NCBI GenBank assembly: GCA_015057625.1
Contig: SVDZ01000001.1
Coordinates: 306,921-370,920 of the forward strand
DNA length: 64,000 nt
Direction of reading: 5' to 3'
Origin: Lachnospiraceae bacterium
Lineage (GTDB): Bacteria > Bacillota > Clostridia > Lachnospirales > Lachnospiraceae
Positions within the stretch are counted from its first letter, which is position 1. Each line of letters opens with the position of its first letter. Of the stretch, positions 3,715-60,155 are shown in pieces. The translations under genes were made by a program, and so were the position numbers. The notes beneath the pieces were generated by a model. That model was given only the letters and a program-made list of their open reading frames with translations. It searched no databases and was not told the DNA's origin.

Positions 3715-5247
3715 CTATAAGTTTGTGTAGCCCATCAATGCTTTATCCACTTCTTTTGCCACACTTCTACCTTCAGCGATTGCCCAGACTACAAGGGACT
3801 GTCCTCTGTGCATATCTCCTGCTGTGTAAACACCCGGCACTGAAGTTTCGTGCTTACCACATGCAGTCTTAACGTTTGTTCTCTGATCTGTCTCCACCCC
3901 AAAGTTCTCTGTCACATACTGCTCGCTTCCAAGGAAACCTGCGCAAATAAGCACTAACTGTGCAGGTACTGTTTTTTCTGTCCCCGGCTTTTCTGCCATT
4001 ATTACTCTTCCTGTTTTTTTATCTTTCTTTGGCTCTAAAGATACAATAACAACTTCCTTGAGATTTCCTTTTTCATCTTTGATGAATTCTTTTACTGTTG
4101 CCTGATACATTCTCGGGTCGGAGCCAAATTTCCATGCAGCCTCTTCCTGACCGTAGTCTGTTTTAAGGACCTTTGGCCATTCAGGCCATGGATTGTTTGG
4201 AAGTCTTTTTGCTGCTGCCTGTGGCATCATCTCTAACTGGAGAATGCTCTTTGCTCCAAGACGCATACAAGTTCCAACACAGTCATTTCCTGTATCTCCG
4301 CCACCGATTACAATAACATCTTTATCTTTTGCCAATTCGTATGGATAATCCTTAAAATCAGAGTCAAGCAGTTTCTTTGTGACAGTACCTAAGAAATCTA
4401 CTGCAAAATAGATTCCCTTTGCCTCTCTTCCCGGAGCCGCAATATCTCTTGGATTTGAAGCACCACATGCGAGAATTACACTGTCATAATCTTCTTTAAG
4501 CTTAGCTGCATCCACAAAAGTTGCTGTATTCTCTGTCAGTTTATCGACACCTGAATTAATATCTGCTCCTCCTACATTTGCATTGTAAACAAACTTAATT
4601 CCTGCCTCTTCCATCATTGCAATTCTTCTATCAATTACCTTCTTATCAAGTTTCATGTTTGGAATTCCATAACGAAGAAGTCCACCGGCGCGGTCACTTC
4701 TCTCGTATACTGTCACCTCATGACCTCTTCTGTTGAGAAGCTGTGCTGCCGCAAGTCCTGAAGGTCCACTACCTACAACAGCAACCTTCTTTCCCGTTCT
4801 GGAACTAGGAATTTCTTCCTTAACAAGTCCGTTTTCAAAAGCATATTCAATAATTGCTTTCTCATTTTCCTTTACTGTGACAGCCTCATTGTGAAGCGAA
4901 CATGTACATGCTGCCTCGCAAAGTGCAGGACAAACCCTGCTTGTGAATTCCGGAAAACTGTGTGTTATGGCAAGTCTATTGTATGCCTGCTCAAGTTTCC
5001 CCTTGTAGACAAGTTCATTAGTTTCCGGAATAAGATTGTGAAGCGGGCAACCTGAAACCATTCCTGCAATCATTAATCCCGCCTGACAGAACGCAACGCC
5101 GCAGTCCATACATCTTGCCGCCTGCTCGCGCTGTTTATCAAGGGACAGTTTTCCATGAAACTCATCAAAATTCTTAACTCTTTTTTCTTCCTCTATAACC
5201 GGAGCGTCAACTCTCTCATATTCTAAAAATCCCGTTGGTTTTCCCAT
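3715..5247 (-). CDS. gltD: Glutamate synthase (NADPH) small subunit
   Basis: Electron-input subunit of GOGAT: it takes electrons from NADPH through FAD and iron-sulfur clusters to the large subunit, which makes glutamate from glutamine and 2-oxoglutarate. The 510-residue length is normal. The N-terminal ferredoxin-like part has the cysteine motifs CMDCGVAFC and GCPLHN. It is followed by an FAD-binding GSGPSGLAAA dinucleotide fold (about residue 155) and an NADPH-binding GGGDTGNDC fold (about residue 320). AGGAGG precedes the start. The large-subunit gene is upstream on the same strand, but 950 bp of repeats separate the two, which is unusual for a pair normally adjacent. Confidence 0.95.
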   Translation of the reverse strand: MGKPTGFLEYERVDAPVIEEEKRVKNFDEFHGKLSLDKQREQAARCMDCGVAFCQAGLMIAGMVSGCPLHNLIPETNELVYKGKLEQAYNRLAITHSFPEFTSRVCPALCEAACTCSLHNEAVTVKENEKAIIEYAFENGLVKEEIPSSRTGKKVAVVGSGPSGLAAAQLLNRRGHEVTVYERSDRAGGLLRYGIPNMKLDKKVIDRRIAMMEEAGIKFVYNANVGGADINSGVDKLTENTATFVDAAKLKEDYDSVILACGASNPRDIAAPGREAKGIYFAVDFLGTVTKKLLDSDFKDYPYELAKDKDVIVIGGGDTGNDCVGTCMRLGAKSILQLEMMPQAAAKRLPNNPWPEWPKVLKTDYGQEEAAWKFGSDPRMYQATVKEFIKDEKGNLKEVVIVSLEPKKDKKTGRVIMAEKPGTEKTVPAQLVLICAGFLGSEQYVTENFGVETDQRTNVKTACGKHETSVPGVYTAGDMHRGQSLVVWAIAEGRSVAKEVDKALMGYTNL

Positions 5248-6198: not shown

Positions 6199-9100
6199 TT
6201 AATTGTTAAATTTCTTGAATGCTTCTATTGCTGCCTGCTCATCATCAAATCCTGCAAGCTTTGCTTCTGAAATCAGTCGTTTCATTTCCTTGTAATCTGT
6301 TGGGATGATTTTCTTGAAGTGTTTGATGTACTCATCAAAATCATCAAGTACTTCTTTTCCCTTTTTAGATCCTGTGTTTTCAACATGTTTTTCGATAATG
6401 CGTTTTAATTCTTCTATATCGCCCTTATCTTCCACATTCTCCATGCTTACAAGCTGCTTGTTGAGGTTTCTGTAAAGTTTGTTATGTTCATCTAAAACAT
6501 ATGCGATACCGCCGCTCATTCCTGCTGCAAAGTTCTTGCCTGTAGGTCCGAGGATTACTGCACATCCACCTGTCATGTATTCGCATCCGTGTTCGCCAAC
6601 ACCTTCAACTACTGCAAGTGCTCCTGAGTTTCTTACGCAGAATCTCTCACCTGCCATACCTGCGATATATGCTTCACCGGATGTTGCACCGTAGAGAGCA
6701 ACATTTCCGATAATTATATTCTCGCCCGGATTGTACTTTGCTTCCTTTGGAACATTTATAATAAGCTTTCCGCCTGACAATCCTTTTCCGTAATAGTCAT
6801 TGCTGTCACCGCTTATCTTAAGTGTAAGTCCTTTTGGAATGAAAGCTCCAAAACTCTGTCCGCCGGAACCTTTACAATTTACTGTAATTGTATCTTCCTC
6901 AAGGCCTTCAGGATGTTGTCTTGTTATCTCTGCTCCAAGCAGTGTTCCGAAAGTTCTGTCTGTGTTTGTAATATCAATGTCAATCTCACTCTTCTTTCCT
7001 TTTTTGATTGACTCCTTAATCTCTTTTGAATTCAAAAGAACGCTCTCGTCTTTTGTCTCCTCCAATTTGAAATCATATGCAAAATCAGGATTGAATGTAA
7101 CATTTTCTCTTCCAACTTCTGACATGTCATAAAGAATTTTTGAAAGATCAATCTTTGCTTCATCTTCTGCAAGATTTTCTTTTTTCTTGAGTAAATCAGT
7201 TCTGCCGACTAACTCGTCAACTGTTCTCACTCCTAATTTTGCCATGTACTCCCTGAGTTCTCTTGCCACATAAATCATGAAGTTTTCAACGTGCTCAGGT
7301 TTTCCTGCAAATCGCTTTCTGAGTTCAGGATTCTGTGTTGCAATACCCATTGGACATGTATCCGACTGGCATACTCTCATCATGACACAACCCATTGTTA
7401 CCAGTGGCGCTGTGGCAAATCCGAATTCCTCGGCACCAAGAATTGCTGCGATTGCAACATCTCTTCCGCTCATCAACTTACCGTCTGTCTCTATTACCAC
7501 CTGATTTCTCAGTCCGTTTGCGATAAGTGTCTGATGTGTCTCTGCAAGACCTAATTCCCAAGGGAGTCCCGCATTGTGTATTGAACTAAGTGGCGCAGCC
7601 CCTGTTCCTCCGTCGTAACCCGATACAAGCACAACCTGCGCTCCTGCTTTTGCTACACCTGCTGCAACTGTACCTACTCCTGACTCAGAAACAAGTTTTA
7701 CTGAAATACGCGCGTTCTTATTTGCATTTTTCAAATCGTATATAAGCTGCGCCAAATCTTCTATTGAATAGATGTCGTGATGTGGTGGTGGTGAGATAAG
7801 GCTCACACCCGGTGTTGAATGTCTGGTCTTTGCAATCCATGGATAAACTTTCTTGCCCGGAAGATGTCCGCCTTCGCCGGGCTTAGCACCCTGCGCTAAC
7901 TTAATCTGAATCTCTTTTGCACTTACTAGATATCTTTCTGTCACTCCGAAACGTCCGCTGGCTACCTGCTTAATTGCAGAACTTCTGTCATTCTTTGTTC
8001 CTGCTGAGAGAATTCTCTCTTCACTCTCACCGCCCTCGCCACTGTTTGACTTACCGTGAAGTCTGTTCATGGCAATTGCCAATGTTTCATGGGCTTCCTC
8101 TGAAATTGAACCGTAAGACATGGCTCCTGTCTTGAATCTCTTAACAATTTCTTCTTCACTCTCAACCTCATCTATTGAAACACCCTTTTTAGGATATTCA
8201 AATTCAAGAAGGCTTCTTAAGTAACCTGTCTTTTCAGAGTCAACCATATCTGTATATTCTTTAAACAGCTCATAACTTCCCTCTCTTACTGAGCGCTGAA
8301 GCATATGAATTGTCTGAGGATTATATCTGTGATTTTCTCCTCCGCTTCTTAATTTGTGTCTTCCTGTTGCGGACAATTCAAGATTTACTGAAAGTCCAAG
8401 AGGATCAAAGGCATGACTGTGCTGAGCATCCTGAGCCTTCTCTATATCCTCAAGCGTAATACCGCCAATTCTGCTTACAGTTCCTGTGAAATACTCATTT
8501 ATAACTTCATCTGAAATACCGATTGCTTCAAATATCTTACTTCCCTGATAAGACTGAACTGTTGAAATACCCATCTTTGATGCAATCTTTACGATTCCGA
8601 ATAATATTGCATTGTCATAATCATCAACTGCTGCATAATAATCTTTGTCCAGATTTCCATCCTCAATTAGTTCTGCGATTGTTGCATGCGCAAGATAAGG
8701 ATTAACTGCTGAGGCACCATATCCTAGAAGAGTTGCAAAATGATGTACCTCTCTTGGCTCTCCGGATTCAAGAATAAGTGACATTGCTGTACATTTCTTT
8801 GTTTCAACAAGGTGCTTGTGCACTGCCGCAACTGCAAGGAGGGATGGTATAGCCACGTGATTTTCGTCAACACCTCGGTCTGAGAGAATTATGATATTGG
8901 CTCCCTCTTTGTATGCCTTGTCAACTTCAACGAACAAATGCTTGAGCACCATTTTCATAGGTGTGCTCTTGTAGTAAATAATAGGAACTTTCTTTACATT
9001 GAATCCCTCTTTCTTCATATGCTCAATCTTAAGCAAATCAAGATCTGTAAGAATAGGATTATCAATCTCAAGCACATGACAGTTCTCCGGCTTTTCTTCA

Positions 9101-10749
9101 AGAAGGTTACCATTCTTTCCCACATACACTGTTCTTGAGGTTACAATCTCCTCTCTCTGTGCGTCGATTGGTGGATTTGTAACCTGCGCAAATAATTGTT
9201 TGAAATAGTAGAACAATGGCTGATACTGTTCTGAGAGTGCAGCTATCGGAGTGTCAACACCCATTGAGCCGATTTTCTCAGTTCCGTTAAGTGCCATGTT
9301 TCTGATTCCTTCGTAATAGTTTTCATATGTGTACCCAAATGCCTTCTGAAGTTTCTTTCTCTCTTCTCCTAAAAGTTCAGGTACCTTCATGTTTGGAATC
9401 TTTATATCTGCAAGGTGGATAAGCCCCATATCAAGCCATTCGCCGTATGGTTCCTTTCCTGCATATTTTTCTTTTATTTCGTAATCTTCGTAAATTCTTC
9501 CCTCCACCGTATCTACAAGAAGAATTTTACCCGGATGAAGTCTTTCTTTTTTAACAATGTGCTCTTCAGCAATATCAAGTACTCCCACTTCTGATGAAAG
9601 AATAAGTCTTCCGTCATCACATATGACATATCTTGAAGGTCTGAGGCCGTTTCTATCAAGAATTGCTCCCATCACATCACCATCCGAGAAAAGAATTGAT
9701 GCCGGTCCATCCCATGGCTCCATCATTGTTGCATAATACTGATAGAAATCTCTTTCTTCCTGTGAAAGTGTATCGTTATGAGCCCATGGTTCAGGAATTG
9801 CAATCATTGCAGCCAGCGGAAGATCAAGTCCGCTCATCACAAGAAATTCCAGTGTATTGTCAAGCATTGCTGAGTCTGAACCACTCTGGGAAATAACGGG
9901 AAGAACCTTTGTCATGTCTTCATCAGAAAATGTATCTGTGTGCATTGTCTCTTCTCTTGCAAGCATTTTGTCTGCATTTCCCTTGATTGTATTAATCTCA
10001 CCGTTGTGAACAATAAATCTGTTTGGATGAGCTCTGTTCCAACTTGGGGCTGTGTTTGTTGAGAATCTTGAATGAACCATGGCAATGGCTGATTCGTAAT
10101 CTTCATCCTGCAAATCATTGAAGAATGTCCTAAGCTGTCCTACAAGGAACATTCCTTTATATACTATTGTTCTACATGAAAGAGACGGAACGTAAGTATT
10201 TACATTACTCTGTTCAAACTCTCTTCTTATAATGTAGAGCATTCTGTCAAATTCAAGGTCTGTCTGCGCACTCTCAGGTCTCTCAATGAACACCTGAGAA
10301 ATGTGAGGCATACACTCTCTTGCTGTATTTCCAAGAACGTCAGGAGTTGTGTTTACCTCTCTCCATGCAAGAATTTTAAGTCCTGCTTTTTTTACTATTA
10401 TCTCAAACATTGATTTTGACTGTCTCATGTCGAGATCATTCTGTGGAAAGAAAAACATTCCCACACCGTACTGTCTCTTTTCCGGTAAATCAACTCCGTT
10501 TTCTTTCATTATCTTTTTGAAATATTTATGTGGAATCTGTGTGAGAATACCTACACCGTCACCGGTTTTTCCTTCAGCATCCTTACCTGCTCTGTGTTCA
10601 AGATTTTCAACAATTGAAAGAGCATCACACACCAGCTGATGTCCCGGCTTTCCCTTAATGTCAATCACAGCTCCTATACCGCAATTGTCATGTTCAAAAC
10701 TTTTGCTATACAGTCCGTTTTTTTCAATTTTTTCTAATTGATTTACCAT
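6199..10749 (-). CDS. gltB: Glutamate synthase large subunit
   Basis: Catalytic subunit of GOGAT. The N-terminal class II amidotransferase domain releases ammonia from glutamine, which travels through the protein to the FMN domain and aminates 2-oxoglutarate. The 1516-residue product is full length. The amidotransferase cysteine is Cys23 in DNCGIGAV; the short segment before it is probably removed as a propeptide, as in related enzymes. The FMN-domain motif GYDGGTGAAP and the 3Fe-4S cysteines in CQSDTCPMGIATQ are intact, and the C-terminal glycine-rich beta-helix is present. AGGAGG precedes the ATG. A promoter, a leader hairpin and an ANTAR-like terminator lie upstream, implying nitrogen control by antitermination. 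Its partner gltD lies downstream beyond the repeats. Confidence 0.97.
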   Translation of the reverse strand: MVNQLEKIEKNGLYSKSFEHDNCGIGAVIDIKGKPGHQLVCDALSIVENLEHRAGKDAEGKTGDGVGILTQIPHKYFKKIMKENGVDLPEKRQYGVGMFFFPQNDLDMRQSKSMFEIIVKKAGLKILAWREVNTTPDVLGNTARECMPHISQVFIERPESAQTDLEFDRMLYIIRREFEQSNVNTYVPSLSCRTIVYKGMFLVGQLRTFFNDLQDEDYESAIAMVHSRFSTNTAPSWNRAHPNRFIVHNGEINTIKGNADKMLAREETMHTDTFSDEDMTKVLPVISQSGSDSAMLDNTLEFLVMSGLDLPLAAMIAIPEPWAHNDTLSQEERDFYQYYATMMEPWDGPASILFSDGDVMGAILDRNGLRPSRYVICDDGRLILSSEVGVLDIAEEHIVKKERLHPGKILLVDTVEGRIYEDYEIKEKYAGKEPYGEWLDMGLIHLADIKIPNMKVPELLGEERKKLQKAFGYTYENYYEGIRNMALNGTEKIGSMGVDTPIAALSEQYQPLFYYFKQLFAQVTNPPIDAQREEIVTSRTVYVGKNGNLLEEKPENCHVLEIDNPILTDLDLLKIEHMKKEGFNVKKVPIIYYKSTPMKMVLKHLFVEVDKAYKEGANIIILSDRGVDENHVAIPSLLAVAAVHKHLVETKKCTAMSLILESGEPREVHHFATLLGYGASAVNPYLAHATIAELIEDGNLDKDYYAAVDDYDNAILFGIVKIASKMGISTVQSYQGSKIFEAIGISDEVINEYFTGTVSRIGGITLEDIEKAQDAQHSHAFDPLGLSVNLELSATGRHKLRSGGENHRYNPQTIHMLQRSVREGSYELFKEYTDMVDSEKTGYLRSLLEFEYPKKGVSIDEVESEEEIVKRFKTGAMSYGSISEEAHETLAIAMNRLHGKSNSGEGGESEERILSAGTKNDRSSAIKQVASGRFGVTERYLVSAKEIQIKLAQGAKPGEGGHLPGKKVYPWIAKTRHSTPGVSLISPPPHHDIYSIEDLAQLIYDLKNANKNARISVKLVSESGVGTVAAGVAKAGAQVVLVSGYDGGTGAAPLSSIHNAGLPWELGLAETHQTLIANGLRNQVVIETDGKLMSGRDVAIAAILGAEEFGFATAPLVTMGCVMMRVCQSDTCPMGIATQNPELRKRFAGKPEHVENFMIYVARELREYMAKLGVRTVDELVGRTDLLKKKENLAEDEAKIDLSKILYDMSEVGRENVTFNPDFAYDFKLEETKDESVLLNSKEIKESIKKGKKSEIDIDITNTDRTFGTLLGAEITRQHPEGLEEDTITVNCKGSGGQSFGAFIPKGLTLKISGDSNDYYGKGLSGGKLIINVPKEAKYNPGENIIIGNVALYGATSGEAYIAGMAGERFCVRNSGALAVVEGVGEHGCEYMTGGCAVILGPTGKNFAAGMSGGIAYVLDEHNKLYRNLNKQLVSMENVEDKGDIEELKRIIEKHVENTGSKKGKEVLDDFDEYIKHFKKIIPTDYKEMKRLISEAKLAGFDDEQAAIEAFKKFNN

Positions 10750-10784: not shown

Positions 10785-10820
10785 ATAGCACAGATTTTCA
10801 CTTGGCTCGTCGTGGATAAC
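10785..10820 (-). other. Conserved post-terminator element E (gltB leader copy)
   Basis: Read on the minus strand, this element (TTATCCACGACGAGCCAAGTG, then AAAATCTGTGCTAT) directly follows the U-run of the leader terminator. Very similar sequence follows the terminators at 22.53, 58.51 and 60.16 kb. A short CAC/GTG stem encloses the conserved loop GACGAGCCAA. Confidence 0.65.
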
Positions 10821-10826
10821 AAAAAA

Positions 10827-10863
10827 GGCACTTTGAGTCCATTACTCAAAGCGCCCTTGCTTT
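10827..10863 (-). promoter_or_regulatory. ANTAR-type antiterminator/terminator in the gltB leader
   Basis: Two mutually exclusive structures on the minus strand. P1 is AAAGC-[AAGGGC]-GCTTT (10848-10863), a five-pair stem with a six-base loop having A at position 1 and G at position 4. The overlapping 12-pair terminator stem (10827-10855) is followed by six Us (10821-10826). The downstream hairpin can also present AATGGA, another AxxGxx loop. This is the layout known for ANTAR targets; no ANTAR protein gene is in the window. Confidence 0.75.
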
Positions 10864-10886
10864 TCAAAATCAATATTAGTTTTAAA

Positions 10887-10936: not shown

Positions 10937-10966
10937 ATTATATACACCACTAAAAATGAAAGTCAA
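10937..10966 (-). promoter_or_regulatory. gltB promoter
   Basis: Minus-strand -35 TTGACT (10961-10966), 18-base spacer, -10 TATAAT (10937-10942). The spacer TTTTTnGTGG word is shared with the purF promoter and resembles that of glnN. Transcription would start near 10930, giving a leader of about 180 bases. Confidence 0.75.
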
Positions 10967-18689: not shown

Positions 18690-18763
18690 TGCGTGTCTCA
18701 GATTATTATTGTATAGACTTTCTAAAGACGTATGTCCGTTTCAAAAAGTATAGTTTTTGAAAC
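18690..18763. repeat. Modules D and A abutting the purF stop codon
   Basis: Module D (18690-18715) is a perfect 26-bp inverted match to 5344-5369. Module A (18738-18763) is a perfect hairpin, GTTTCAAAAA-GTATAG-TTTTTGAAAC, whose last base is the last base of the purF stop codon. It could stabilise or end the purF transcript. Confidence 0.8.
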
Positions 18764-20229
18764 TACACCGGGTAGTTGTTATCGAAACACGCCTTACAAA
18801 TCGGCAAATCTCCGACCATTGTTTTAAAATCTTCTATCTCAAGATACTGTAGCGAATCCGCGCCGATATTTTGGCATATAAAATCAACGGAATGTTCTGA
18901 TGCAATCAGTTGCTTACTGCTTGGTACATCTGTGCCGTAATAGCAAGGATACAAAAAAGGTGGTGAACTAATCTTTACATGCACTTCTTTTGCTCCGGCT
19001 TTTTTAAGCATCTCTATAATTTGTTTCATTGTAGTTCCTCTGACTATTGAGTCATCTATGATAATTATGTTTTTGCCTCGAACTACATTATCTATAACAC
19101 TAAGTTTCATATGAACAGCTTCTCTTCGCTCTTCATCTGTAGGCTTAATGAAACTTCTTCCTATATAACTGTTTTTGTGGAATGCCAATGCAAACGGAAT
19201 TCCGGATTCTTTCGCATAACCTGCTGCAGCGGCAAGTCCTGAGTCAGGAACACCAACTACGATATCTGCATCTATTTTTGATTTTCTGGCAAGTGCTCTT
19301 CCTGCACGTTCACGTGCCTCATGTACTTCAATACCGTCAATTACAGAATCAAGCCTTGCAAAATAAATGTATTCAAAAATACAGTGAGCATGTTTCTTGT
19401 TGCACAAATCCTCATTTGAGCTGATGCCCTCCGGAGTTATTGTTATGATTTCTCCAGGCTTCACATCACGAATAACTTCACCTCCGGTTGTTGTAATTGC
19501 CACACTCTCAGAAGCCAAAATGTATGTATCATCTCTCTTTCCAAGAACTAGAGGCTTTATTCCCTGCGGATCACGCATTCCCACAAGCTTTCTCGGGCTC
19601 ATCACAATGACTGCGTAACCGCCATGAATTTTATCAGCAGTATTTTCAACCGCCTCTTCAATTGAGCCAGACTTTACCCTCTCACTAATAATTTCATAGG
19701 TAAGTACTTCTGAATCAGACGACGTGTAATGCGCCTGTCCTCTGTACATCTGTTTTTCTTTTATTTCGCCGGCATTTACAATGTTGCCATTATGCACTAC
19801 GGCAAGACTTCCCTTGATATAATTCATTGCTATTGGCTGAGCATTTTCAGGAGTACTTCCTCCTGTTGTTGAGTATCTGACATGGCCCACTCCAATATTT
19901 CCGACCAATTTTTTCGAATTGGCATCTGCCGTTCCGTCAAAATCAGTATTATCAAAAACCTCGCTGACAAGTCCCATACCTTTCTTTGTTTTGATATTTC
20001 CCATAGGTCCTGTCGTATCTGAGATTGACATACCTGCCGACTCCTGCCCTCTGTGCTGCAATGCAATCAATCCATAATAAATATCCTTTGAAACATTTAC
20101 TCCTTCAGGTGCATAGATTCCAAACACTCCACATTCTTCATGAAGTTTGTCATCATAATCACCAACTTCATAGAAATTCTTTTCACATTCGCCCATTTGA
20201 TTTTTGCATGATAAAATTTCGTTTTGCAC
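18763..20229 (-). CDS. purF: Amidophosphoribosyltransferase
   Basis: First committed enzyme of purine synthesis: it moves the glutamine amide to PRPP to give phosphoribosylamine. The 488-residue protein resembles the Bacillus type. It has a propeptide of about 32 residues before the class II amidotransferase cysteine (HEECGVFGIY), the PRPP-binding motif IIIDDSIVRGTT, and cysteines near the C-terminus (FLYPCYYGTD, ICKACFDN) consistent with the 4Fe-4S cluster. The start is a GTG at 20229 with AAGGAGG six bases upstream. Its leader has the same ANTAR-like hairpin and terminator as glnN and gltB, an unexpected link of purine entry to nitrogen status. Other purine genes are not nearby. Confidence 0.95.
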   Translation of the reverse strand: MQNEILSCKNQMGECEKNFYEVGDYDDKLHEECGVFGIYAPEGVNVSKDIYYGLIALQHRGQESAGMSISDTTGPMGNIKTKKGMGLVSEVFDNTDFDGTADANSKKLVGNIGVGHVRYSTTGGSTPENAQPIAMNYIKGSLAVVHNGNIVNAGEIKEKQMYRGQAHYTSSDSEVLTYEIISERVKSGSIEEAVENTADKIHGGYAVIVMSPRKLVGMRDPQGIKPLVLGKRDDTYILASESVAITTTGGEVIRDVKPGEIITITPEGISSNEDLCNKKHAHCIFEYIYFARLDSVIDGIEVHEARERAGRALARKSKIDADIVVGVPDSGLAAAAGYAKESGIPFALAFHKNSYIGRSFIKPTDEERREAVHMKLSVIDNVVRGKNIIIIDDSIVRGTTMKQIIEMLKKAGAKEVHVKISSPPFLYPCYYGTDVPSSKQLIASEHSVDFICQNIGADSLQYLEIEDFKTMVGDLPICKACFDNNYPV

Positions 20230-20254
20230 TTTGTGCCTCCTTAAAAATAAAAGA

Positions 20255-20292
20255 AGACACTTCGAGTACTATACTCAAAGCGCCTTTGCTTC
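20255..20292 (-). promoter_or_regulatory. ANTAR-type antiterminator/terminator in the purF leader
   Basis: P1 is GAAGC-[AAAGGC]-GCTTT (20277-20292), with a loop having A1 and G4. It overlaps a 13-pair terminator stem (20256-20284) followed by TTCTTTTATTTTT. The second hairpin can expose ATAGTA, again AxxGxx. Position and sequence match the gltB and glnN leaders. Confidence 0.75.
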
Positions 20293-20333
20293 TCTAAATC
20301 ATCATTTTATTTCTTATTGTTCTTATTTAACTT

Positions 20334-20392
20334 GGGATAATTGTATTATTCCCACATTTCAAATTATAAGCACCACGAAAAACGAATGTCAA
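20334..20392 (-). promoter_or_regulatory. purF promoter and 5' leader hairpin
   Basis: -35 TTGACA (20387-20392), 18-base spacer, -10 TATAAT (20363-20368). A GGGAATAAT/ATTATCCC hairpin (20334-20353) lies at the start of the transcript. The promoter spacer strongly resembles that of gltB. Confidence 0.75.
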
Positions 20393-20558
20393 CAATCAAC
20401 ATCTGAGCAACGAACAAATGTTAACATTGTAAAGAATTATCATGCCATTTAACAAATAGTGTTAAAAAAAACTTTAATTAATTAATATTGTTATATAACA
20501 ATTTATAAAATCTATTTATTAAATAAATCTTGCCATGTACAACGGTAAAGTAAATAAG

Positions 20559-20591
20559 AAGGCACTTTGAGTACAATACCCAAAGTGCCTT
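20559..20591 (-). terminator. Terminator of the amt gene
   Basis: AAGGCACTTTG/CAAAGTGCCTT stem, then a moderately T-rich stretch on the minus strand. It resembles the leader terminators of gltB and purF but lacks the P1 hairpin. Confidence 0.7.
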
Positions 20592-20675
20592 GGTTTCTTT
20601 TAAGAAACATTTGTCATACGTGTAAAGATTTATATCAATAATTTTTCAATTATTAATACCGCTTATATGATGCTA

Positions 20676-22436
20676 TTACTCAACATCCTGTAATGCCTCT
20701 TCGTTTTCTTCACCTGTTCTGATCTTAACGACACGGCTTACAGGGTATACGAAGATCTTACCATCACCGATTTTTCCTGTGTAAAGTGTCTTCTTAGCAG
20801 TCTCAATAACACTGTCTACAGGGATGTCGCTGACAACAACTTCCAATTTGATTTTTGGTAAAAGTGTGAGGTCCATCTCAACTCCACGGTACATCTGTCC
20901 GGCACCTTTCTGAATACCACAACCGCTGACCTGAGTTACTGTAATACCTGTAACACCTAAGTTGTTGAGGGCTCTCTTAATCTTGTCATATCTTGATAAT
21001 TTAGTAATAATAACTACTTTATAAATTCCTGTATCAAGGGTTGTTCCCTGAAGAGGAGTTACATTGTTTTCTACTTTTACTGAAGCTTTCTTCATAGCCT
21101 CACTTGCGTTTTCATATTCATCAACACCAAGTTTTGTGTTTTCATTTGCAAACATTGCAGACTCTGTAATATCAACAATTGAGAAGCCTGCGTAAGCAGA
21201 TGTAAGACCATGTTCTTTAACATCAAGACCTTCAATCTCTTCATCCTCTTCAACTCTAAGTCCGAAAATTGCTTTGATAACTGAGAATACAATTACCATT
21301 GTTACAATTGTCCATGCTGCTACTGAAATAAAACCAATAAGCTGAATTGATAATAATTTTAATCCACCACCGTAGAATAAACCTGTTAACTCATCGTTTC
21401 CGGGAGCTGAAGTTGTTGCGAACAAACCAACTGCTATTGTTCCCCAGATACCGTTCATCATATGTACGGCAACTGCACCTACAGGGTCGTCAATGTGAAG
21501 CTTGTAATCAAGAAGCCAAACACCAAAGCATACTAAAAGTCCTGCAACTGCTCCGATTACGATTGCACCAAAGGCATCTGTTACATCACAAGGAGCTGTG
21601 ATAGCAACAAGTCCTGCAAGGGAAGCATTTAAACACATTGATACATCAGGCTTACCATATTTAATCCAAGTGAAAATCATACATACTACTGTTGCAATTG
21701 ATGGTGCAATTGTTGTTGTAACAAATACTGATGCAAGCTGATCAGTAGAAGTACATGCTGCACCGTTAAATCCGTACCATCCAAACCAGAGGATGAATAC
21801 ACCTAAACATCCGACTACGATATTGTGTCCCGGAATCGCGTTAACTTTTACTACTTTTCCATTTTCATCTTTATCGAATTTTCCGATTCTTGAGCCTACC
21901 ATCTTAGCACCGATAATAGCTGCGATACCACCTACCATGTGAATTGCACATGATCCTGCAAAATCGTGGAATCCCATCTGTGAAAGGAATCCGCCACCCC
22001 AAATCCAGTGAGCTTCTACAGGATAAACAAGTCCTGAGATAATTCCTGAGTATACACAATAACTTAAGAATTTTGTTCTCTCAGCCATTGCTCCTGAAAC
22101 GATTGTTGCTGTTGTTGCACAGAAAACTAAGTTGAATACGAAGTTTGACCAGTCAAAATTCTGGTAGTTTGTTAGAATGTCAAATCCCGGTTTCCCGATA
22201 AATCCAAACAAATCTTCTCCTAGTAACAATCCAAATCCGATTATGATGAACATTGCACAACCTATACAAAAATCCATAAGGTTTTTCATAAGAATATTAC
22301 CTGCATTCTTAGCTCTTGAAAAACCTGCCTCAACCATTGCGAATCCTGCCTGCATCCAAAATACAAGGGCAGCTCCGATTAAAAACCATACGGCAAATAC
22401 CTCTCCGCTAACTGCATTCATTATTTCTTCCGTCAT
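20676..22436 (-). CDS. amt: Ammonium transporter fused to a PII signal domain
   Basis: Amt proteins conduct ammonium across the membrane; PII proteins bind ATP, ADP and 2-oxoglutarate and gate Amt. Here both are one 586-residue protein: an Amt domain with about 11 helices (residues 1-420), a linker, and a C-terminal GlnK/GlnB-like domain (about 465-575). The latter has the PII signatures (GCGIQKGAGQMYRG and TGKIGDGKIFV). The T-loop tyrosine that is uridylylated in enteric PII is replaced by methionine (YRGVEM), so control is probably by ligand only. AAGGAGG precedes the start. It lies downstream of glnN with an ANTAR-like leader between them. Confidence 0.93.
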   Translation of the reverse strand: MTEEIMNAVSGEVFAVWFLIGAALVFWMQAGFAMVEAGFSRAKNAGNILMKNLMDFCIGCAMFIIIGFGLLLGEDLFGFIGKPGFDILTNYQNFDWSNFVFNLVFCATTATIVSGAMAERTKFLSYCVYSGIISGLVYPVEAHWIWGGGFLSQMGFHDFAGSCAIHMVGGIAAIIGAKMVGSRIGKFDKDENGKVVKVNAIPGHNIVVGCLGVFILWFGWYGFNGAACTSTDQLASVFVTTTIAPSIATVVCMIFTWIKYGKPDVSMCLNASLAGLVAITAPCDVTDAFGAIVIGAVAGLLVCFGVWLLDYKLHIDDPVGAVAVHMMNGIWGTIAVGLFATTSAPGNDELTGLFYGGGLKLLSIQLIGFISVAAWTIVTMVIVFSVIKAIFGLRVEEDEEIEGLDVKEHGLTSAYAGFSIVDITESAMFANENTKLGVDEYENASEAMKKASVKVENNVTPLQGTTLDTGIYKVVIITKLSRYDKIKRALNNLGVTGITVTQVSGCGIQKGAGQMYRGVEMDLTLLPKIKLEVVVSDIPVDSVIETAKKTLYTGKIGDGKIFVYPVSRVVKIRTGEENEEALQDVE

Positions 22437-22492: not shown

Positions 22493-22529
22493 AATCACAT
22501 CGAATCTGCTTTGCTCGTCGCAGATAACA
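22493..22529 (-). other. Conserved post-terminator element E (amt leader copy)
   Basis: Follows the amt leader terminator. Here the stem is ATCTGC/GCAGAT around the loop GACGAGCAAA. Compared with the other copies (CAC/GTG), both sides of the stem have changed together while the loop is kept. Confidence 0.65.
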
Positions 22530-22534
22530 AAGAA

Positions 22535-22605
22535 GGCCATCCCAAAGAGCTTTTAATATCATCGGATTAAATCCTTTGAAATCTCCACGCCCTTGTGGGA
22601 TGACC
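22535..22605 (-). promoter_or_regulatory. ANTAR-type leader and terminator upstream of amt
   Basis: P1 is CCAC-[AAGGGC]-GTGG (22585-22598). A ten-pair terminator stem GGTCATCCCA/TGGGATGGCC (22596-22605 with 22535-22544) shares the CCCA strand, so the two structures exclude each other; a T-rich run follows. A second hexaloop hairpin is less clear than in the other leaders. Confidence 0.65.
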
Positions 22606-22618
22606 TGTTTTTAGTTGC

Positions 22619-22667: not shown

Positions 22668-24767
22668 TTAATATACACTGAACAATAACTTGCCATAACT
22701 TGGGAATGGCCAGTATCTTTCAGATGTAAGCATTTCTGCCTCATCAACATATTTTCTGAGGTTTTCCATTGCAGGAAGAATCTCATCTCTCATTGCTTCT
22801 GATGTCTTAATAATGTTGTCATAATTTACAAGACTTGCAAGTTTCTCTTCCAAAGCTTTTGTAGCTTCGTTGATAGAATCAGTAAGTTCTGAAAGTCTTT
22901 CCATAGTAGAAATCTCATAATTACATTTTACATTTGCGCTTACTGACTTCATAAGTGATGTAGTCTTTGCAAGGCTGTAAAGATATCCTTCGATTGCTGC
23001 AAGATAATTCTTTCTTACCATATCAACCATTGTATGTCCTTCAATGTTGATTGTCTTGCAGTAGTTCTCCAACATAATTTCACATCTTGAGTGAAGCTCT
23101 GACTCTGTAAATACTTTGTGAGCGATAAGCATATCCATGTTCTTCTTATCTAATAAGTGTGGCATAGCATCAGCTGTTGTCTTAAGATTTGAGAGGCCTC
23201 TAACCTTTGTAGCTTCCTCAATCCACTCTTCACCGTATCCGTTTCCGTTGAAGATGATTCTCTCATGAGCTTTGATTGTCTCTTTGATAAGTTCATGAAG
23301 TTCACTTTCAAAATCAGCTGCTCCCTCAAGTCTGTCAGCAAACTGCTGTAAACTCTCTGCAACTGCTGCATTTAACATGATGTTACAGCAAGCAATACTG
23401 TTTGCTGAACCAAGTGATCTGAACTCGAACTTGTTTCCTGTAAATGCAAATGGTGATGTACGGTTTCTGTCAGTTGTATCTCTAGAGAATCTTGGAAGTG
23501 AATGTACTCCAAGTTTCATAATTACTTTCTCTGTTCCTTCATAAGGAGTGTCATTCTTGATTGAATCAAGGATTGCTGTAAGCTCATCTCCAAGGAAGAT
23601 TGAGATGATTGCAGGAGGTGCCTCGTTAGCACCAAGTCTGTGGTCATTTCCTGCTGTAGCTACTGACAATCTAAGTAAATCCTGATACTCATCAACAGCT
23701 TTGATTACTGCACAGAGCATAAGTAAGAACTGTGCATTTTCACTTGGTGTATCTCCAGGTGAAAGGAGGTTTGCTCCTGTATCTGTTGCCATTGACCAGT
23801 TGTTATGCTTTCCAGATCCGTTAACTCCTGCAAATGGTTTTTCATGAAGAAGACAAACCATACCGTGCTTTCTTGCAACCTTCTGCATAATCTCCATTGT
23901 AAGCTGATTGTTATCTGTAGCTACGTTTGTTGTAGAGAAGATTGGTGCAAGCTCGTGCTGAGCAGGTGCTACTTCATTGTGCTCTGTCTTTGCAAGGATT
24001 CCAAGTTTCCAGAGTTCCTCGTTTAACTCTTCCATAAATGCGTTTACTCTAGGTTTGATTACACCAAAGTAGTGATCATCAAGTTCCTGTCCTTTTGGAG
24101 GCATTGCTCCGAAAAGTGTTCTTCCTGTATATACAAGGTCAGGTCTCTTTTCGAACATTTCCTTATCTACTAAGAAATATTCCTGTTCAGGACCTACGCT
24201 TGTTCTAACGTACTTAACGTCATTTCCAAATAATTTTAATACTCTCTTTGCCTGGCGGTTAAGTGCCTGCATTGATCTAAGGAGTGGTGTCTTCTTATCA
24301 AGAGCATCTCCTGAGTATGAACAGAATGCTGTTGGAATGCAAAGTGTGTGATCCTTGATAAATGCATATGATGTAGGATCCCAAGCTGTATAACCACGTG
24401 CCTCAAATGTTGCTCTAAGTCCTCCTGAAGGGAATGATGAAGCATCAGGTTCACCCTTAATCAACTCCTTACCTGAGAATTCCATAATGATTCCGCCATC
24501 AGGTGAAGGTGTGATAAAACTGTCATGCTTTTCAGCTGTGATTCCTGTAAGTGGCTGGAACCAATGTGTATAATGTGTAGCTCCGTTTTCAACTGCCCAC
24601 TTCTTCATCTCTGTAGCAACTGCATCTGCTACCTTATCATCTAATCTGGTATTTTCATCTATTGTCTTTCTGAGAGAACTGTAAATATCCTCCGATAATC
24701 TTGCTCTCATTACTCTGTCATCAAAGACAAGAGCTCCAAACATTTCAGGTACGTTTTGTGTATTCAT
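22668..24767 (-). CDS. glnN: Glutamine synthetase type III
   Basis: Makes glutamine from glutamate, ammonia and ATP. At 699 residues it is the large GSIII type common in Bacteroides and Clostridia, not the 440-470-residue GSI. Family motifs include [22 protein letters not shown], here named by its first and last residues only (about residues 136-158), plus [29 protein letters not shown] and [18 protein letters not shown] precedes the ATG. The strong promoter starts transcription only a few bases before the ANTAR-like hairpin. With Amt-PII downstream and GltBD elsewhere, it completes the GS-GOGAT ammonium route. Confidence 0.97.
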
Positions 24768-24798
24768 AACATATTCTCCTTTCCTTAGACAAAAAAAT

Positions 24799-24837
24799 GG
24801 CGCCTCGGAGGTTCAATCTCCAAGACGCCTTTGTCTT
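24799..24837 (-). promoter_or_regulatory. ANTAR-type antiterminator/terminator in the glnN leader
   Basis: P1 is AAGAC-[AAAGGC]-GTCTT (24822-24837), with loop A1 and G4, beginning about three bases into the transcript. It overlaps a 12-pair terminator stem GGCGTCTTGGAG/CTCCGAGGCGCC (24799-24829), which is followed by ATTTTTTT. The second loop reads ATTGAA. This is the clearest example in the window. Confidence 0.8.
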
Positions 24838-24846
24838 ATGTCGTGA

Positions 24847-24875
24847 ATTATAGCCACAAAAAAAACTGCTGTCAA
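24847..24875 (-). promoter_or_regulatory. glnN promoter
   Basis: Perfect -35 TTGACA (24870-24875), 17-base spacer, perfect -10 TATAAT (24847-24852). The start of transcription is expected near 24840. The rest of the glnN-serpin spacer (to 25077) is AT-rich with no clear terminator. Confidence 0.9.
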
Positions 24876-58461: not shown

Positions 58462-58500
58462 TAATCCACCACGAATTTTCACTTGGCTCGTCGTGGATAA
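58462..58500 (-). other. Conserved post-terminator element E (58.5 kb copy)
   Basis: Minus-strand TTATCCACGACGAGCCAAGTGAAAAT, continuing to a TCGTGGTGGAT tract that can pair back with ATCCACGA. It directly follows the terminator of the binding-protein gene. Confidence 0.6.
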
Positions 58501-58508
58501 GAACAAAA

Positions 58509-60119: not shown

Positions 60120-60155
60120 ATAGCACAGATTTTCGCTTGGCTCGTCGTGGATAAC
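60120..60155 (-). other. Conserved post-terminator element E (rpsR copy)
   Basis: Minus-strand TTATCCACGACGAGCCAAGCG, then AAAATCTGTGCTATC. Near-identical to the gltB copy and located directly after the rpsR terminator. Confidence 0.65.

Follow-up and report, generated by a model that had tools for sequence, protein, structure and literature searches.

The leaders of glnN, gltB, purF and amt in the analyzed window (the whole stretch of DNA, 64,000 nt of a Lachnospiraceae genome) are, with a probability of roughly 0.78, single-hexaloop ANTAR-type transcription attenuators, released by a NitR-type protein when nitrogen is short. All four lie on the minus strand, and each carries a hairpin of 4-5 bp with the loop AAAGGC (glnN, purF) or AAGGGC (gltB, amt), mutually exclusive with an intrinsic terminator (Table 1). 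The first-pass annotation had described these stems and their AARGGC loop, and had noted that one strand of the stem doubles as a strand of the terminator; the sequences are confirmed for all four leaders, and so is the overlap. The paired (dual) hexaloop structure that it also proposed has to be given up, and the element is filed here as a variant of the dual-hexaloop ANTAR family, being ANTAR attenuator-like with a single hexaloop in place of the two that define the family. Control of the GS/GOGAT genes by NitR in Clostridium has itself been reported before: NitR of Clostridium saccharobutylicum induces them by antitermination on nitrogen limitation, according to the passage on this protein in PMC6316151 (citing Stutz et al. 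2007).

In the glnN, gltB and purF leaders the 5' arm of the terminator is formed by the 3' strand of the hairpin together with the loop; in amt the outer stem of the terminator contains the hairpin's 5' strand instead. The covariance model R1, which describes the terminator structure, matches glnN (24790-24838, 43.8 bits), gltB (10818-10864, 45.1 bits) and purF (20247-20293, 39.8 bits), all three sequences being included in its seed. The interval originally annotated, 24799-24875, spans the glnN leader from the -35 box of the promoter (24875) to the 3' end of the terminator. Only 9 nt separate the end of the glnN promoter from the antiterminator stem, thus leaving no space for a P1 hairpin (see below), and the glnN hairpin is the first element on the predicted RNA, whereas a leader of about 65 nt precedes the hairpin in gltB and purF. 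The amt hairpin is retained as CCAC-AANGGC-GTGG in genomes G001, G002, G009 and G013.

Table 1. Leader elements and genes of the nitrogen loci in the window (positions counted from the first letter of the window).
Feature	Position	Strand	Basis
glnN promoter, predicted sigma-70 type, TTGACA-17-TATAAT	24847..24875	-	sequence read directly
glnN antiterminator hairpin AAGAC-AAAGGC-GTCTT (hexaloop A1, G4)	24822..24837	-	sequence and model R1
glnN intrinsic terminator GGCGTCTTGGAG...CTCCGAGGCGCC with T-run	24791..24829	-	predicted -21.2 kcal/mol
glnN, type III glutamine synthetase	22668..24767	-	ORF; partial glutamine synthetase model match; homologue searches
amt antiterminator hairpin CCAC-AAGGGC-GTGG	22585..22598	-	sequence
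amt terminator AGGTCATCCCA...TGGGATGGCCT	22534..22606	-	predicted -32.9 kcal/mol
amt, ammonium transporter with C-terminal PII domain	20676..22436	-	NCBIfam TIGR00836 and P-II models
purF promoter, predicted	20363..20392	-	
purF antiterminator hairpin GAAGC-AAAGGC-GCTTT	about 20277..20292	-	sequence and model R1
purF terminator	20252..20293	-	predicted -18.9 kcal/mol
purF, amidophosphoribosyltransferase	18763..20229	-	TIGR01134
gltB promoter, predicted	10937..10966	-	
gltB antiterminator hairpin AAAGC-AAGGGC-GCTTT	10848..10863	-	sequence and model R1
gltB terminator	10825..10858	-	predicted -20.6 kcal/mol
gltB, glutamate synthase large subunit	6199..10749	-	NF008730
gltD	3715-5247		NCBIfam TIGR01317

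The ANTAR protein postulated by the first-pass annotation is indeed encoded in the genome (3.1 Mb, with Lachnospiraceae MAGs from the rumen as its closest named relatives), and exactly once, by a gene (G000:C7:39796-40377) that overlaps with the end of glnA, the NitR arrangement; among 30 ANTAR loci, 27 have glnA directly before the ANTAR gene. This protein, referred to as NitR below, matches Pfam PF03861 (58.1 bits) C-terminally to a receiver-like domain that itself stays below the Pfam cut-off, and its predicted fold (mean pLDDT 83) is closest to RNA-bound EutV (6ww6, TM 0.63). In the region of the RNA contacts defined for EutV (PMC8934654), residues equivalent to K149, E160 and A163 show no variation among the 30 relatives, and position 164 is occupied by an aromatic residue or His. 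The EutV residue in this position, Tyr164, stacks on G4 (PMC8934654); His replaces it in 26 of the 30 relatives, mostly glnA-linked ANTAR proteins, a possible case of protein-RNA co-adaptation. NitR has lost the phospho-acceptor Asp, which is replaced in 32/32 aligned NitR relatives (IxxCGYxLxDM), and its activity is therefore probably governed by a factor that is not a histidine kinase. Here it differs from EutV, a phosphorylated two-component ANTAR protein, and from the eut-type ANTAR protein of G037, a genome of the same order, whose receiver retains the Asp and whose locus includes a histidine kinase.

The covariance-model search finds the element mostly before nitrogen genes, both across the order and across the class. 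Order-wide, RNA matches are present in 194 and ANTAR proteins in 243 of the 294 genomes, and the two co-occur (186 genomes with both, 8 with the RNA only, 57 with ANTAR only, 43 with neither; odds ratio 17.5, p 3.5e-16, overstated since the genomes are related rather than independent). At the level of individual leaders, the motif is found in 0/7 from ANTAR-less genomes versus 50/75 from ANTAR-bearing ones. Of the 90 strong R1 matches, 55 precede glnN (27), amt/PII (18), gltB (8) or glnA (2); other genes behind such matches are asnA, asnB, gdhA, nifH, pyrG, the serine ammonia-lyase gene, argD and those of glutamine-type ABC transporters. Class-wide, matches occur in 98/243 genomes at E 1e-4, and the hairpin is present in 25/25 new loci inspected, mostly before glnN, amt, PII, asnA and nifH; the best class-level matches outside the family likewise lie mostly before nitrogen genes. 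The glnA-nitR operon itself bears a site in Clostridium tertium (TTGAGC-AATGGC-GTTCAA) and in several Lachnospiraceae, and a search at this operon in the window's own genome found no motif. Taken with the single ANTAR gene and the kept loop, the co-occurrence and the leader counts favor what had been proposed for the four genes, a coordinated nitrogen regulon under antitermination of the ANTAR type, with the protein presumably binding the loop. Neither of the outcomes that the first-pass annotation had named as refuting it, a genome devoid of ANTAR genes or loop bases that change freely in orthologous leaders, was observed. Moreover, hexaloop attenuators lie before nifH-type genes in two loci (L204 of G058 and L332 of G482), which suggests that nitrogenase or nitrogenase-like genes can be controlled by this switch as well.

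It is unlikely that some other RNA-binding regulator, or a small ligand, reads C-AANGGC-G and that the association with ANTAR is an indirect one, through shared nitrogen physiology. Such a reading would account for the 25/75 leaders of ANTAR-bearing genomes that do not have the motif, and for the few motif-bearing genomes where no ANTAR gene was detected, e.g., G305 (motif before glnN) and G291 (before asnA); these two genomes have no type I glnA either, so that the glnA-nitR pair may fall into an assembly gap or have been lost recently. It is opposed by the co-occurrence itself, by the position of the motif at the head of the glnA-nitR operon in several genomes, C. tertium among them, and by the absence of matches to Rfam riboswitch families, the only match in a search of the window against Rfam 15 being a spurious tmRNA, with the attenuator copies unmatched. 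It is opposed also by the loop consensus, which is that of a eut-type ANTAR site of the same order. This site, at the ANTAR locus of G037 mentioned above, consists of gattacac-AACGGC-gtgtaatc, 6 nt, and gagc-AATGAG-gctc, followed by a terminator. Its loops, C-AACGGC-G and C-AATGAG-G, share the consensus of the nitrogen leaders but are paired, and this match is the strongest argument from sequence that an ANTAR protein reads the nitrogen leaders.

In the known ANTAR motif, P2 is the hairpin located at the terminator base, and P1 lies upstream of it, with a linker of 5-12 nt in eut (PMC3369931). The AARGGC hairpin corresponds to P2 and not to P1, and no second hexaloop is found either inside the terminator or upstream. 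The first-pass candidates for it, ATTGAA, AATGGA and ATAGTA, were rejected, as they are parts of loops that measure 7, 5 and 3 nt, and these sequences vary freely in relatives. An A1/G4 hexaloop hairpin at most 45 nt upstream is seen at 6/113 sites, as expected by chance (5.65 +/- 2.1 in shuffled sequences), and upstream of these 113 sites A1/G4 loops are no more common than other loops. In the four window leaders no hexaloop hairpin of at least 3 bp occurs within 75 nt upstream, and a strict dual-hexaloop scan of the window gave no match. For 91 of the 113 sites a promoter of the TTGACA/TATAAT type is predicted, with a spacing of at most 13 nt from the -10 box to the stem in 66 of the 91 cases. 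As transcription normally begins 6-8 nt past the -10 box, the hairpin is, as far as these predictions hold, usually the first element on the RNA, right at its 5' end.

These observations make it quite improbable that the leaders are canonical sites, with the AARGGC loop as one contact of a dimer and another hexaloop, in the terminator or upstream, as its second. Known ANTAR targets are indeed dual (PMC3369931), and a positive control, the scan with the same criteria of eut-type and other second ANTAR loci, recovered the true dual site of G037; however, the putative second loops have the wrong sizes and are unconserved, upstream hexaloops appear at the shuffled rate, and most of the predicted promoters leave no room for one.

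The single-hexaloop structure is further supported by conservation and covariation in orthologous glnN, gltB and amt leaders gathered from 40 related genomes, in which the stems vary and the loop is constant, as had been annotated for the window alone. When sites are picked by AANGGC and a T-run alone, with the stem ignored, a stem of at least 4 bp flanks AANGGC before the T-run in 34/48 leader cases versus 21/804 (2.6%) elsewhere in the same loci (Fisher p 4e-35), while re-pairing of strands between leaders yields, in place of 34, a mean of 5.4 and a maximum of 13. A strict scan of the window retrieves gltB, purF and one spurious site, compared with 0.25 sites per shuffled window. In the alignment of 34 sites, made without reference to structure, columns 13-18 covary with columns 1-6, their antiterminator partner (score 0.725 vs 0.263 shuffled, 60 double-change cells), and the same six columns covary with columns 44-52, their terminator partner (14-pair score 0.648 vs 0.250 shuffled). 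In neither case is the score reached in 500 shuffles, and both scores exceed all slid controls. The aligned sites were selected for both folds, so that the percentage of paired positions is biased and the variety of compensating pairs is the informative part. Judged by this covariation, selection acts on both of the two folds, which exclude each other.

As for the loop itself, 39 distinct leader sites have hexaloops, compared with 7 and 6 sites with loops of 5 or 7 nt. A1 together with G4 is present in 31/39 leader hexaloops versus 13/82 elsewhere, several of these 13 being leaders of other genes. The closing pair is C-G in 110/110 instances (selected for A1/G4), over 25 different 4-bp stems. 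The first-pass annotation regarded both A1 and G4 as fixed; for A1 this is nearly so, the exceptions being the glnN leaders of four ANTAR-bearing genomes, which have G1. In most leaders A1, A2 and G4-C6 join the base of the terminator, and for loop positions 4-6 conservation is thus partly expected from the terminator alone. Still, it is very improbable that these are ordinary constitutive terminators, with the hexaloop a by-product of AAGGC...GCCTT bases after A-rich sequence, given that the 5' strand (columns 1-6) is mostly outside the terminator and yet covaries strongly, that AANGGC is so seldom stem-flanked elsewhere and strict matches outside leaders are few, and that a nitrogen gene with a terminator behind its strong promoter would stay silent if there were no release mechanism.

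If the leaders act as single-hexaloop attenuators, RNA polymerase would start just upstream, and the C-AANGGC-G hairpin, supported by sequence and covariation, would be made first. Left unheld, it would lose its strand to the stronger intrinsic terminator, and transcription would stop, as the predicted energies and the T-runs suggest. Under nitrogen shortage, the NitR-type ANTAR protein whose gene lies beside glnA may bind the hexaloop, and the terminator would then be blocked, allowing transcription of glnN, amt, purF and gltBD. The leading candidate for the sensor is GlnA, the adjacent glutamine synthetase, a role suggested by gene adjacency and by analogy with the GS-TnrA interaction in Bacillus. 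Extended to the whole class, the proposal is a tentative one: a nitrogen regulon of Clostridia controlled by antitermination at a single 5'-end hexaloop, where the ANTAR pseudo-receiver might read the adjacent glutamine synthetase and not a kinase signal.

EutV contacts its hexaloops singly, one after the other, and requires both for antitermination (PMC3369931, PMC8934654), and hence a single loop should fail if NitR behaves like EutV. NitR may manage with one loop by a higher affinity or rate, or the short 5'-terminal leader may allow it enough time. How far single hexaloops matter is a question raised by the EutV authors (PMC8934654), and the many natural sites with one hexaloop and an overlapping terminator make the both-hexaloops rule of EutV directly testable. 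They also offer a compact model for RNA-level control of ammonium assimilation in gut and rumen Clostridia.

The nitrogen leaders share with the dual-hexaloop ANTAR RNAs (EutV/eut, NasR/nasF, AmiR/amiE; PMC3369931, PMC8934654) the A1/G4 hexaloop, the C-G closing pair and the short stem, as well as the overlap with an intrinsic terminator, the nitrogen genes downstream and an ANTAR protein in the genome. They differ in having one hexaloop with neither P1 nor linker, in the usual position of the hairpin at the transcript 5' end, and in the narrower consensus AANGGC. As in C. saccharobutylicum, whose NitR is described in the corresponding passage of PMC6316151 as linked to glnA, the ANTAR protein here is a neighbor of glutamine synthetase, and a Clostridium glnA-nitR leader bears the same single hexaloop; compared with the targets named in that passage, the regulon here extends further (to amt, purF, asnA, asnB, nifH and others) and is class-wide. 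The regulator of the Pseudomonas aeruginosa system, AmiR, is also an ANTAR protein. It is controlled by a partner protein, the sensor AmiC, and not by phosphorylation. Unlike the leaders described here, its targets are dual hairpins (PMC3369931), and in fold NitR resembles AmiR less closely than EutV (TM 0.31-0.36).

Several minor observations concern further copies of the element. R1 finds in the window's own genome, apart from gltB, glnN and purF, one new true-looking site (G000:C25:330842-330888, TGAGAC-AAAGGC-GTTTCA), located before the gene of a PPDK_N-domain protein of >770 aa that has no obvious role in nitrogen metabolism. The other matches in this genome (one of 31.2 bits, the rest at most 24.6 bits) were rejected, as they look like ordinary terminators that have no hexaloop stem, with the exception of the amt-purF intergenic terminator (20552-20598, minus strand, 25.5 bits), which is attenuator-like, likewise without a hexaloop stem, and is perhaps a decayed or partial attenuator copy. 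Tandem attenuators, with two full hexaloop/terminator units before one gene, are seen in the amt leader of G014 (L068) and in a glnA-nitR leader (L271, at 4558 and 4631). Finally, a repeat starting with GTTATCCACGACGAGCC has 13 copies in the genome, each immediately 3' of the T-run of an intrinsic terminator; the copies agree over their first 20 nt or so and thereafter diverge into modular repeats. Those in the window are on the minus strand (10802-10820, 22510-22528, 58483-58501 and 60137-60155), and the gltB and amt attenuators are among the terminators trailed by this repeat, which looks like a terminator-targeted one.
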